Of a DNA stretch of 64,000 bases, positions 43,174 to 47,690 are shown piece by piece (within the stretch, counting starts at the first letter, position 1; each line of letters opens with the position of its first letter). Position numbers and translations under genes: made by a program. The notes below the pieces were generated by a model, which ran no database searches, was not told the origin of the DNA, and was given only the letters and a program-made list of their open reading frames with translations. The stretch spans positions 1 to 64,000 of the forward strand of contig NZ_CAKMLL010000032.1 in the NCBI RefSeq assembly GCF_927797785.1. The letters run 5' to 3'. The stretch comes from Candidatus Nitrotoga sp. BS. GTDB taxonomy: Bacteria; Pseudomonadota; Gammaproteobacteria; Burkholderiales; Gallionellaceae.

Positions 43174-43544
43174 TCTTAAGATGTGCTGAACGATGCGCAT
43201 TTAGCTTGACGCACACTTAGGGCATACTGAAAACAGTTTAGAGTTACAATATGCTCTCAAGATGTAATATGAGAAGTCGCGACTTTGATCTAGCAATTAC
43301 TGATTTTTTAGTTTGGCATTTTGACATATCGTATTCATCGAGAGGTTTTACAGTCGGCGTCAATGAGGGTGCTCGTCTAATTTCTTATCCATGATGCACA
43401 GTATTGTGCAGGCCATGTAGAGGATGTCTCATAAAATAAAAGCGCTGCCTTGCCCAATAATTAGGAGCACAGAAAATTCATTAAGTGCATAATAATATTG
43501 TGTATGTTGAATAATTTCCCGTAAATTTATAAATGGAGTTAGAC

Positions 43545-43907
43545 ATGAAGAAAACTGTTGGTTACCTTATGATTGTGTCCTGTTTTGCATTAGGCTCTAC
43601 GTTAGCTCACGCGGATACCGATGCACACCATGGGAAAATGCATGGGAAAGCGCATGGACATGGGAAAATGCATGGACATGGGAAAATGCATGGACATGGG
43701 AAAATGCATGGACAAATGTTTAACTCTATGGATGCTAACGCCGATGGTGCAATCACCAAAGAAGAGTTTGATGTTTACCATGCTAAGAAATTTAAGGAAA
43801 TGGATGTTAACGGTGATGGCCAAATCACTTTCGGTGATATGAAATCCAAGTCCGAGAAGGCGGAAGTTAATCGCGATAACTATTATAACGTTGGCCCATT
43901 ACGCTAG
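43545..43907 (+). CDS. Exported His-rich EF-hand protein
   Basis: 120 residues from the ATG at 43545, chosen because GGAG lies six bases upstream; an ATG at 43533 overlaps the ribosome site. A signal peptide (MKKTVGYLMIVSCFALG, cleavage near AHA) is followed by a His/Gly/Lys/Met-rich stretch built from repeats of GKMHGH, then two EF-hand loops, DANADGAITKEE and DVNGDGQITFGD. A periplasmic metal- (Ca, and perhaps Cu, Ni or Zn) binding role is likely. Its leader is nearly the same as that of the exported protein at 46335-46784. Confidence 0.82.
   Translation: MKKTVGYLMIVSCFALGSTLAHADTDAHHGKMHGKAHGHGKMHGHGKMHGHGKMHGQMFNSMDANADGAITKEEFDVYHAKKFKEMDVNGDGQITFGDMKSKSEKAEVNRDNYYNVGPLR
43659..43712 (+). 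repeat. Three perfect 18-bp tandem repeats inside the EF-hand gene
   Basis: The unit CATGGGAAAATGCATGGA occurs three times in a row and encodes the hexapeptide repeat HGKMHG. Less perfect units lie upstream. In-frame repeat number could vary between strains and change the number of His/Met ligands. Confidence 0.85.
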
Positions 43908-46334
43908 ATTGATTTGAGTATCTGGTCAGATTGATGGCTATATCATTGATTACGTTGGTCAGCTCTTGGTAAGTGTTGTTGATATTAGGATCGCTTACTT
44001 GCCGAGCGGGCCGACGGTGTCTTCGATATTGTCGCTGGATTTAAGATATTGGAGTTACGCAACTAATATTAGAGGTGCCATTAACTCATTTAATGGAAAA
44101 AATGAATTAGTGTGGCAATTAATCAGTGTTCAGATTGTATAGTGTGATACGGTAAAGCCTAAATATTAAGGCTAGCATATGCCTGTCTTGTTATTTGTGC
44201 CTGCCAGAATCTCCTCTATTTAAAAAACCTCCTTTCTGAACTTTCAGTATGTGCTCCACAAATGTTGATTTTTGTTGCGGGAAGGAAAAGTTTTGCATTT
44301 TCCCGATGCAGAAGTATTAATTTTCATGATGTTGGGCGATCACAATTCCTCGATTATTAAAGTCCGGCCTAAAGAAATTTAGTGTTGTTTAAGCCACTAG
44401 TTTGCATGGTGAGACTCGACCATTGCTTTTATCACCGTCCACACAACTACTCTCGTTTCCACAGGACGTTGCCTATGCGGTGAGATTCCTTGCCATCATG
44501 GCCATGCAACATGGTGCTTGAACCCGTTGATGGATGATTCGATCTCATTGAGACGACCATTTGATCATCCGTTATCTTTTCCGTCACTTGGTGATGCAAA
44601 ATGAATTGGTGCTGGACCTTCAAAATGCGTACCTTGAAACCCAGTTCAAAGGGGACGCCCGCTTTGCCTTTGCTGCCCCATTCGGTGTGCGGCTCAAAGA
44701 TTGAAAAAATTTTCCCGACCTGCGGGATAATTCCACCATGGATGATACTAAGTCCAGTTTAGTCTATCTGTCGCATCGCGTGTTCAATGAAGTTTCCACT
44801 TTCCAGTTTCTTCAGACCATCAAATTCACCCGTGAAGCCCATGCTGTTGAAGCATGGCAATCGTATCGCATGCTTGGAACAGTTGAAAACTTTTCGTTCC
44901 TCCCTTGGAATTACCCTCTGAATTCGCACTTTGGTAGCTCGCTTACAACCATATACCAACTGATGTTGATGCGCACACGGTACTGCTACATTCGTTGATA
45001 AAGTCACAATTCGATGTAAAACTTGTGGCGCAAGACACCTCGTTCGCGCAGAAATAGCATACAAAATTCGCCTGCGGGAACGATACGAATAAATCATCCT
45101 GATGTTCCGCTGTATGTTCGGGGCAAGCTCCGAGACCGTGAGCCAGCCGCATCTGTAAGACGAAGGAAGCGCTAGCCGCTGCTGGTAAATTGAATAGCTA
45201 GAGATATATTCACGACGTGCCGAATCCGAACGCAATCATCTATTCGCTTGTTGAAACACCAAGGCAAGCGGCGTGGATAAAAGTGGTTGCCGTAGAATTT
45301 CATGCGGCAACTTTATCAAACATCACTCCATGCTGATTAGCCTGTTGTTACTGAAGCACTTGTTGGCAATGAGCACTCCTACTGCACAGCAGGCGATTCT
45401 ATATTCCAGTTTGTGTTGATATTCTTGAAAAATGGTTTTTAGTAGTTCTTTACTGCCCAGGCACCCACGTACTCTTCGGTCTATCGAATATGAATTTGCT
45501 CATTTATTCTCATGTGCTAGCAGCCTGTCGGACTTAAAGGAAATCGGCTGCAAATTAAGCGGAGCGGTGTATATTTCGCCGCTTTTTTGGGCAATAGAAC
45601 AACTATTACCCTGCAAAATCATCAAGTGGGGTAAGCAGGCATTTCGCCGTAAGGCGAAAGCTCGCAAAATCTACCCTCGCTCAGCTCAATTTTCGCTACG
45701 ATTCTTTAAGTCCGACAGACTGCTAGTGGTATTTGTGGGGCTAAAATGAATTGCGTATTTACTTTTTATAGTAGTCGTCCTATTATGTGGCTCTCATCGA
45801 TATATATAAAGGTGAGATGCGAAAAACTGACAGGACAAAAAAGTTGACGATTGGTTGTCTATTTAGGATTAAAGACACTTGCCGGAGGCTCCATGATGTT
45901 AATCGTATGCAGTGTGGGAAGTTGTATGCAGTAGTTGTTGAAGACGGAAGATTGTAAAATACCGTCCATGTTGCTAAATGTACTTAATATCCATACGGTC
46001 AATGTAATTCGATCAAATGGGTATGGTGTTGCAAGTATAACAACATGTTATGCATTTGATTTGAAATGGGATTAAGAATTTATCAGGAGAATACTTTATA
46101 CGTATGTTTTTTTCTGTTACCGGTGAATCTTAAATTTTAGTATCAATGAATTATGTGGATATTGAAATAAACTTCGATAAATACTGTTTGGTACTAGGAT
46201 GCACTTGTATATTGATTTACTTCCATGATAATTATTTGCACACTTAACGCAGTCGCAATAAAAGCTTGTAGGAGTGAGGCACATTTCACCCCCACTCAAC
46301 TATCCTCGTAAGATTTGATATTAAGGAGCTTGTA
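43908..46334. other. 2.4-kb region without an intact gene
   Basis: The stretch separates the two leader-sharing exported proteins. It holds the 210-bp MITE copy at 45517-45726. Around 44570-44990 a plus-strand frame (RYLFRHLVMQNELVLDLQNA, a stop, then LVYLSHRVFNEVSTFQFLQT) is open except for a single stop and could be a decayed gene of unknown type. Minus-strand frames at 44759-45235 show no family features. No RNA gene was recognised. Confidence 0.45.
45517..45726. mobile_element. 210-bp MITE with CTAG-bounded inverted ends, copy 2
   Basis: Begins CTAGCAGCCTGTCGGAC and ends GTCCGACAGACTGCTAG. It is nearly identical, in opposite orientation, to 22524-22733 over its full length, including the internal TTTCGCC/GGCGAAA hairpin. 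The few differences lie mainly in the interior and one terminal base. It has no gene of its own. Confidence 0.85.
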
Positions 46335-46784
46335 ATGAAAAAAACTGTTATGAATCTAGCTATCGTTTCCTGTTTTGCATTGGGTGCTTCAGCAGCTCAA
46401 GCTTATAACCCAAATGCTTTTGGTGACCCAGCAGCGTCGGCAGCATATACAAAGAATGCAACGGTAGAAGGTCAGACACAAAATATCAAAGTTGGTCCTG
46501 ATGGTGTTCGTCTTCCTTATAATATGGCTGAAGATCGTCATAGTCACAAAGTAGCTAATACCCCTAATGGTGTTAGTGTTCAATGCATGAACTGCGGCAC
46601 CAGCTTGTCCTTGGCGGATGGCGCAAGGCAAACATATGGTGGTATTAGCCCTTACTTTCCGAAACCTAATGTCAAAAATCCACCAGTTGAAGCTCCTGAA
46701 TATTGGAACATGACAGGAAAATCGGAAACAGGGGAAGAAAACAAAAACCAAAGTGCTTATAGCAGGGGTTATTTTGCCAGGTAA
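46335..46784 (+). CDS. Exported protein of unknown function with a CMNC motif
   Basis: 149 residues with AAGGAG upstream. A signal peptide MKKTVMNLAIVSCFALG ends near AQA (~23). The mature part has no recognised domain. It contains a single CMNC pair (~84-87), a VGPDGVRLPYNMAEDRHSHK segment and a Pro-rich YFPKPNVKNPPVEAPEYW segment. The CxxC could bind metal or be redox-active, but CMNC followed by G is not a haem motif. It is followed by a strong terminator and appears monocistronic. The leader resembles that of the EF-hand protein at 43545. Confidence 0.78.
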   Translation: MKKTVMNLAIVSCFALGASAAQAYNPNAFGDPAASAAYTKNATVEGQTQNIKVGPDGVRLPYNMAEDRHSHKVANTPNGVSVQCMNCGTSLSLADGARQTYGGISPYFPKPNVKNPPVEAPEYWNMTGKSETGEENKNQSAYSRGYFAR

Positions 46785-46820
46785 TTTTTGGTAACAGGCA
46801 TCAGATGTTTAAGTAAAATT

Positions 46821-46858
46821 AAAGCACAAGGCCAGCATTAATGCTGGCCTTGTGCTTT
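46821..46858 (+). terminator. Long perfect-palindrome terminator
   Basis: AAAGCACAAGGCCAGCATT is exactly mirrored by AATGCTGGCCTTGTGCTTT, a 38-bp palindrome. It ends in TTTAT and lies 36 bases after the stop of the exported-protein gene. With A-rich and T-rich edges it can act in both directions. Confidence 0.8.
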
Positions 46859-47690
46859 ATGCGTAAATATATTGCTTGCTTGAGCAGCAAGAACCATTAC
46901 ACATGATAATGTTTTTGAGTTTTTCGGCGCTAACGGTTTTCCTGTGGGCTACATTGGCATTTTTTTCATACTTCCCACCGCCACCGCTCACTTTCACTTC
47001 CCGCTTGATTTGCGAGTTTTAGTCTTTTTTGTAGGTTGCGACAATTAATTTGAATGCCGATTAAAAAGTAATTTTTGAAGAGAGTGACAACGGGTGAGAT
47101 TTTTTAGCTGGCAGACTACCGAATTATAGTGTTGTAGTAATTTAACATATTGATTATTTTTATAGAATATAACAGACAATAAGTATATCAATGTAATAAT
47201 TGGTTATGAAAAAGCCAGATTGAATGTTCTTAGAGCAACACTGTTATTGGCCAGTTCAAACCTGCCAGAAGCAGCTTGATGTAATTGCCGCACACACCCT
47301 GCTGTAGGTAAGCATAATGCACAGCAATCTAATCTCTTTCGCCACCCCCTGCGGGGGTTCTTACAGTGAAGAACATCCGTTGGCATAACAGCCTTGATAG
47401 AGCGATCTGCCAATAGGTGTGGTGCTGGTCAAAAAGGTTACACTTGCTTGCCTCTTTTACATCAACTAGTGTCGTAATCAGTGTCCATCGGTCAACACGG
47501 ACTTCCCTCACCTTAAGAGTCTTCCTTGGTCGCGTAAGTGTTCGCATCCTTCCAGACTGGGCGCAGAGGGCAATCCACGATTGTGCTAATAATAATAGGA
47601 TATATTGACGAACTCTATGGATGCTCCAACTATTAATGCTCCAATGGAATAACCCTTCTATAGCAAATTTATTTTCAATAAGGAGATTGA
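46859..47690. other. Spacer with an IS4 transposase relic
   Basis: No intact gene. The right half holds the IS4-type relic described at 47215-47590. The left half is AT-rich with no structure of note. The ABC exporter promoter must lie near its end. Confidence 0.45.
47215..47590 (-). pseudogene. Remnant of an IS4-family transposase
   Basis: The minus strand encodes RPRKTLKVREVRVDRWTL, then ITTLVDVKEASKCNLFDQ, matching the IS4 pattern VR.IRV.GW...TTLLDA..Y....L..LY..RW. After a frameshift it continues as DRSIKAVMPTDVLHCKNP, matching D.RSIK.VMQMDVLRCKTP, then further shifts. Only the C-terminal third remains, with at least two frame breaks. This could be kin to the elements whose ends appear at 59534-59730. 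Confidence 0.78.

Follow-up and report, generated by a model that had tools for sequence, protein, structure and literature searches.

Background

In Borrelia, the Erp/Elp genes carry a conserved leader and conserved 5' DNA in front of unrelated mature lipoproteins, as described in the available text of two reports (PMC9060444, PMC12018966); the Erp genes of Borrelia burgdorferi comprise the OspE, OspF and Elp subfamilies and have an upstream homology box (available text of PMC12018966). Here we describe the closest parallel that we found to this arrangement, in the genus Candidatus Nitrotoga. It came to light through two genes for small exported proteins, beginning at positions 43545 and 46335 of a 64,000-nucleotide (nt) stretch of Candidatus Nitrotoga sp. 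BS (positions 1 to 64,000 of contig NZ_CAKMLL010000032.1, hereafter the window).

The likeness is one of gene structure only, and no sequence relation is claimed. In both systems a leader is kept across genes with unrelated mature parts, and the DNA upstream of the start is homologous, in Nitrotoga within each of two classes of upstream region and not between them. The Erp/Elp proteins are lipoproteins encoded mostly on the plasmid-like cp32 elements of a pathogen, whereas Nitrotoga is a nitrite oxidizer of another phylum; unlike a cp32 placement, all 22 leader places in G005 and G007, the two genomes assembled as single contigs, fall on that chromosome-sized contig (3.0-3.3 Mb). The Nitrotoga set also differs in its signal-peptidase I-like signal peptides, its two classes of 5' untranslated region (UTR) and its shared 3' tails.

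In Gram-positive bacteria, the YSIRK motif directs septal secretion of wall-anchored proteins. The YSIRK/GXXS surface proteins likewise combine one conserved motif in the signal peptide with a variety of mature proteins; the YSIRK motif was found in none of the 108 leader proteins analysed here. The titles and opening lines of abstracts of the open-licence articles found in searches on Nitrotoga, Nitrosomonas and shared signal peptides do not describe the leader family, which is weak evidence, and the available text of the Nitrotoga fabula paper (PMC6050957) contains nothing on it.

From the comparisons below we hypothesize that these genes form a genus-wide set of small exported proteins whose 5' module is probably common by descent and has been joined to different mature parts by recombination. 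The module would consist of the stretch coding for the signal peptide and, within each of two large groups, about 40 nt of 5' UTR with a Shine-Dalgarno site. Duplicates of it would have become linked, through recombination, to a range of mature coding sequences, and recombination among paralogues would have yielded further mosaics, shared 3' tails included. The module would presumably give these genes common expression.

The shared leader in the window and across the genus

The two window genes lie 2.4 kb apart on the same strand. A reading of the window's letters alone (the sequence-only reading) had described their signal peptides as nearly identical and their mature parts as unlike, and both statements hold: 14 of the first 17 residues are identical, the 43545 protein contains EF-hands (PF13202, E=3.7e-11; 42.4 bits against a cutoff of 25.9, in two stretches), and the 46335 protein stays below the cutoff for every Pfam and NCBIfam family. 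The latter protein has a CMNC insert that recurs in one other of 14 aligned family A members (Nitrotoga sp. M5).

Further genes with the same leader and other mature parts, which that reading had envisaged, exist in the same genome (3,095,138 bases in 121 contigs), at C66:37464 and C78:46884, so that its four leader genes have four different mature parts. A search of this assembly for the pattern SCFALG gave three places, and the reversed pattern none. A leader profile of 24 positions, built from 13 leaders including both window leaders, found 110 places at E<=0.0136 in 15 of 19 genomes of the genus (rows counted by hand); the next row, at E=0.0239, covers 14 positions. There are 4 places in the genome of strain BS, 3 in G001, 9 each in G002 and G004, 15 each in G005 and G006, 7 in G007, 6 in G008, 10 in G009, 6 in G012, 4 in G013, 2 in G014, 6 in G015, and 7 each in G017 and G018. 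Genomes G003, G010, G011 and G016 gave no match at that threshold; G011 does contain one EF-hand-like gene (L077), whose leader is longer and weaker.

In other genera of the family, a leader match at E<=0.01 was found in only 3 of 49 sampled genomes (G051, G044 and G023), and the leader is therefore not a generic signal peptide of these bacteria. A weak match in another genome of the family (G022) contains four internal stops and was taken as noise. The three leader genes extracted from outside the genus all encode EF-hand proteins, so the EF-hand version may be the oldest.

We extracted 108 distinct genes, 105 from the genus and 3 from outside it, counting identical coding sequences once and leaving out a frameshifted gene (L167) and two of the weakest places (L170 and L171), which were later found among the controls. 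By eye and by pattern they were sorted into families A (14 genes, with window gene 46335), B (14), C (30 EF-hand genes, with window gene 43545), D (10), E (8, serine-rich), F (13), G (6, EF-hand), H (5), I (2) and T (2), and four singles.

Their leaders have Ala at residue 23 in 103 of the 108 genes and at residue 21 in 87, and Lys 3 is invariant in the 13 aligned leaders. Reading of the sequences finds a positively charged n-region, a hydrophobic stretch and an AxA before the mature part; the leader would thus work as a regular Sec signal peptide, with signal peptidase I presumably cleaving behind AxA. A lipoprotein reading, with cleavage by signal peptidase II, was rejected: a lipobox Cys is expected at about residue 15-35, and the common Cys of these leaders is at residue 13, within the hydrophobic stretch, and is missing from families G and I. 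We also rejected the idea that a C-terminal tag serves for export throughout the set, since the tails differ from family to family.

Relation of the leaders in protein and DNA

Leader homology was assessed with profiles that held out the class under comparison. The 43545 leader scored 43.0 bits with a profile made only from families A, B, D and F; for the 46335 leader, a profile confined to the EF-hand class gave 50.0 bits. The best of 94 signal-peptide-like controls reached 36.9 and 28.7, both from the same 363-residue protein. More generally, all 51 leaders of A, B, D and F exceeded all 94 controls with a profile from C and T genes, and with the two sets exchanged the top control was exceeded by 10 of the 32 leaders of C and T, the second by 30 of 32. 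The 94 controls overlap loci fetched for leader matches; a repeat omitting those loci left 54 controls, whose best scores were 4.7 and 3.1 when one overlooked family member (21.5 and 23.1) is excluded, and which were exceeded by 51 of 51 and 32 of 32 held-out leaders. On these scores, the likeness of the two window leaders at the protein level is beyond chance.

The DNA of the window pair was also said to match. The two leaders agree at 48 of 69 nucleotides and use the same codon at 8 of 15 same-residue positions, against 5.0 expected, and blastn aligns only the leader (nt 61-128 of both, with ATG at 61; 70.6% over 68 nt). Among the four leader genes of this genome and 109 non-homologous control gene starts, counting in-register matches only, the pair scores E=1.1e-4. 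A pair of controls with different Sec-like leaders gives 8.8e-6 (80% over 45 nt), the 363-residue protein matches the F gene of the strain BS genome at 5.9e-8 (76% over 62 nt), and an overlooked serine-rich relative among the controls matches that F gene at 2.1e-7. The claimed alignment is thus real and confined to the leader, and because it falls within the range of the controls the relation of this pair rests on the protein-level and family evidence.

Most other pairs of the same genome match over longer stretches. A and F agree at 82% over 95 nt (E=4.6e-22), spanning UTR and leader, and the matches of B with F (75% over 114 nt) and A with B (77% over 93 nt) also run from UTR into leader, the three having E values from 4.6e-22 to 4.3e-16; C and F agree at 71% over 90 nt (2.1e-7), and B and C over 23 nt at 91% (1.1e-4). 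Between families, leader positions with the same residue have identical codons at a frequency of 0.53, against an expectation of 0.346 derived from the opening codons of 114 control genes. This synonymous agreement lies above expectation in all 45 family pairs, and in 44 of 45 when mature-part codon usage is taken as the reference. On consensus sequences of the families, the codons are the same in 263 of 429 cases, against an expectation of 150, which rises to 184 when one side is taken to use the commonest codon throughout; these comparisons are not independent of one another.

Two classes of upstream region

In families A, B, D, F and G, the stretch of about 40 nt that precedes the ATG is similar from one family to the next (class I); A and D align over 67 columns, and the EF-hand family G has its UTR in common with family F, which has no Pfam domain. 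A model of this upstream stretch alone (R1, for which 19 examples were used) matched 55 places at E<=0.0055 across the 19 genomes, every one directly before a leader gene, with the next match at E=0.0365. Most EF-hand-class genes have another upstream consensus (class II). Its model (R2), built from 18 EF-hand-class stretches with 8 EF-hand genes of other upstream regions left out, found 23 places at E<=7.5e-4, of which 22 adjoin a leader gene, one of them frameshifted. The upstream DNA is thus homologous across unlike mature families and linked to the leader. The window pair has one gene of each class, class II before 43545 and class I before 46335.

In outgroup genome G044, the best R1 match (E=0.013) lies directly before its leader EF-hand gene, which hints that class I upstream DNA, leader and EF-hand together are the old arrangement; no such match was found upstream of the leader genes of G051 and G023.

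Mature parts

With blastp at 1e-4, the mature parts of the 108 genes fall into six clusters and five singles, which extends the combination of one leader with different mature parts to the genus. Families A, B, F, D and H are separate clusters, and C, G, I, T and seven of the eight E genes form one group of 47, helped together by low-complexity stretches and common tails. Most mature families are without clear homology to each other: in profile comparisons among A, B, D, F, G and H, 14 of 15 pairs had at least 2 of 30 column-shuffled controls that scored as well.

Pfam cutoffs were exceeded by the 43545 protein, a family G protein and gene 107, with EF-hand (PF13202 and others) and PepSY (PF03413) domains; representatives of A, B, D, F, H and I reached none. 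Relatives of the 46335 protein are mostly from Candidatus Nitrotoga (N. fabula ZN8 and Nitrotoga sp. M5, LAW, MKT, SPKER, CP45, HW29 and 1052), with others in a Betaproteobacteria metagenome-assembled genome (MAG) and in Gallionellales UBA7399. In 149 other sampled genomes of the order there was no match to family A, save for two near E=0.001 that start at the leader and cover 27 and 55 positions, and in 199 others none to family F, save for one at E=0.0014 with three internal stops; both samples included few genomes of the same taxonomic family. For the 46335 protein, AlphaFold2 with 12 aligned sequences gave no usable fold (mean predicted local distance difference test score 41), and a PDB sequence search gave no match. 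Neither window protein matched PHROGs, and the viral contigs searched gave no match. Because of their EF-hands and His/Met-rich stretches, many of the mature parts (EF-hand, His/Met-rich or acidic) may bind Ca2+ or other metals in the periplasm.

Mosaic genes, duplicates and broken copies

Mosaic genes occur in the set. In genome G006, gene 93 (C16:113852) matches gene 92 over nt 16-294 at 86% and gene 94 over nt 313-622 at 83%, and genes 92 and 94 have in common only a stretch of about 55 nt around the start. Tails are also shared. The tail PTGxAGKSSxPSGS is present in 5 of the 108 genes, of which three have an EF-hand and the other two lack one; CCW[TAS]P is found in ten (eight of C, two of I), of which genes 57 and 96 share 48 nt there at 83%. 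The end pattern YYKTxxL occurs at four places in G004, all of the genome-wide occurrences being on leader genes with different middles, and at one in G006, where a stop stands just before the motif.

Tandem copies are present as well. Two leader genes of G012 (C24:541 and C24:1024, L257), 483 bp apart, encode the same protein with identical coding sequences, a fresh tandem copy; elsewhere there is a family D pair (L121), and G adjoins F in several genomes. The D pair (L121:950-5517) stands beside a gene for a large efflux-type protein of 1082 residues, which we take, from its sequence, to be CzcA/CusA-like.

Two places are broken front ends. The remaining R2 place (G005, C1:1299383-1299426, L255) has an ATG followed by unrelated GC-rich DNA, an orphan front end, and a leader fragment in the same genome (C1:1941313, L258) runs into unrelated sequence. 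In addition, the start of an EF-hand leader gene in a CP45 MAG (G002, C36:9105-9175, L256) is out of frame with the rest after an A run, which may reflect a pseudogene, phase variation or an assembly error.

Features of the window

The positions of the two genes and their parts are collected in Table 1. Within the 43545 gene, a tandem repeat with 18-nt steps (43629-43712) encodes the His/Met-rich GHGKMH stretch of the EF-hand protein. Between the two genes lies a 210-bp element with 23-nt terminal inverted repeats (45517-45726), a member of a family resembling miniature inverted-repeat transposable elements. It has 76 match rows in this genome, some of them its own inverted ends, and nine rows, including the window copy, are 96-100% identical over at least 210 bp. 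The element was considered as a mover of the 5' module and dropped: with 40 of 69 candidates scored, no listed copy lay on C66 or C78, the contigs with the other two leader genes of this genome.

Table 1. Shared-leader genes of the window and the elements that adjoin them (positions in the window).
Feature	Position	Strand	Evidence
Shared-leader gene 1: small His/Met-rich EF-hand protein with export leader, 120 residues	43545..43907	+	Pfam PF13202
Shared-leader gene 2: family A protein with export leader, 149 residues	46335..46784	+	
Shared leader of 43545 gene, 23 codons (MKKTVGYLMIVSCFALGSTLAHA)	43545..43613	+	Leader profile E=2.4e-15 (sequence part of profile); held-out profile 43.0 bits
Shared leader of 46335 gene, 23 codons (MKKTVMNLAIVSCFALGASAAQA)	46335..46403	+	Leader profile E=2.7e-16 (sequence part of profile); held-out profiles 49.8 and 50.0 bits
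Class II 5' UTR (EF-hand class), adjoins ATG	43501..43543	+	Model R2 match E=1.6e-10 in own genome (stretch part of model)
Class I 5' UTR, common to families B, D, F and G	46295..46333	+	Model R1 match E=2.0e-10 (stretch part of model)
Inverted repeat directly upstream of class I UTR; possible 5' hairpin	46268..46295	+	Terminator-like on minus-strand listing; folding support moderate at best
Perfect 20-nt inverted repeat 3' of family A gene	46820..46859	.	Terminator-like on minus strand only

Discussion

Several points weigh against descent of one 5' module joined by recombination to different mature parts. The 363-residue protein (L221 of genome G137, fetched because its leader resembles the shared one, and presumably porin-like) belongs to another family and yet has the leader MKKNLISLAIAGAFAFGASVATA, very like that of family F; the DNA match of the window pair does not by itself beat the best controls; genes of one family are not independent samples; and the two UTR classes have no detectable relation to each other. 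Models R1 and R2 contain some of the stretches that they find, and their genome searches scored only 150 first-look candidates per genome. The mature profiles of A and D score 19.0, against at most 15.1 in 30 shuffles, with a probability of only 4.6%, and those of A and F and of G and H exceed 28 of 30 shuffles; A and D may thus be distantly related, and some families may be diverged duplicates rather than replacements. Within family D, mature identity falls to 0.30. Finally, gene 84 of G006 resembles gene 93 over 502 nt at 79%, so the direction of the mosaic is ambiguous and gene 92 or 94 may be the derived one.

A rather doubtful alternative is that the leader and its nucleotides are kept for a function of their own, either a common sorting route of the YSIRK kind or an RNA site for co-regulation. 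Such a function would fit the strong conservation of residues 12 to 14 (Ser in 103, Cys in 98 and Phe in 92 of the 108 genes), as well as the distribution of the codon excess, which is largest at codons 2, 4-5 and 11-15, present at 18 and 20, and at background at 8, 10, 19 and 21-23, with codons 12-15 (TCC TGT TTT GCA) agreeing well beyond usage. It would fit, too, the use of TGT for the leader Cys (86 genes, against 12 with TGC) although TGC is the commoner in mature parts (60 to 18), and the tail motifs common to leader genes with different middles. Cys 13, however, is missing from all six G genes and both I genes, and a search of nine leader loci against Rfam gave two matches, each well short of the gathering score; such a pattern could also be the result of common descent by itself. 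RNAalifold on families A, D and G found no consensus pairs in the alignment, and single-sequence folding gave mean z values of -2.1 for G, -1.7 for D, -1.1 for A, -0.8 for C, -0.7 for B and -0.1 for F, with -0.24 for 102 controls; a 5' hairpin is thus no more than suggested, most clearly for G and D.

Whole genes may instead have been duplicated, their mature parts then diverging very fast while leader and UTR were more constrained, with no swapping at all; we regard this as unlikely. It would account for the close 5' regions of A and D (77% over 127 nt) together with their faint collinear mature similarity, for the tandem copies, and for the low identities within D. Fast divergence is at odds with the comparison of identities at matched leaders: within-family pairs with leader identity of at most 0.66 keep mature identities of 0.40-0.50 in A (10 pairs), 0.30-0.41 in D (12) and 0.76-0.77 in G (2), above the level between families, where 298 pairs with leader identity of at least 0.65 (families A, B, D, F and G only) average 0.23, with 0.21 for shuffled sequences. 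It also sits poorly with the UTR common to G and F, and the mosaic genes show real joining.

Convergence on a common bacterial signal peptide (MKK, a hydrophobic stretch and AxA), to which the leader of the 363-residue protein and the pair of matching controls might point, is very improbable in the face of the UTR homology and linkage, the synonymous-codon excess, the held-out profile scores, the mosaics, and the absence of leader matches from 4 of 19 genomes of the genus (E<=0.0136) and 46 of 49 of other genera (E<=0.01), so that a chance likeness with no DNA relation does not describe the family.

The sequence-only reading had proposed that leader swapping, or duplication followed by replacement of the mature part, could generate a family of exported proteins. 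For the family, descent of the 5' module with recombination to different mature parts supports this proposal; for the window pair itself, swap, replacement and fast divergence are all possible. Somewhat speculatively, the 5' module might further act as a nursery for new genes, its ready front end for expression and export being copied beside new DNA, time and again, to yield secreted proteins that are reshuffled by recombination at the shared front and tails, and that would be specific to the genus since the sampled genomes outside it gave neither A nor F. In that case, the nucleotide core at codons 12-15 might serve either as a favoured site of crossover or as an RNA control site common to the genes.

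In an important group of nitrite oxidizers, the set marks out a large number of small exported proteins, most of them without a known domain, and gene calling for such proteins gains a reliable start site and leader from it. It is a traceable case of how new exported proteins may arise outside pathogens, since a single 5' module, its many mature parts, the mosaics and the broken copies can all still be seen in related genomes, and it suggests that reuse of one front end may be a way in which bacteria make new exported proteins.

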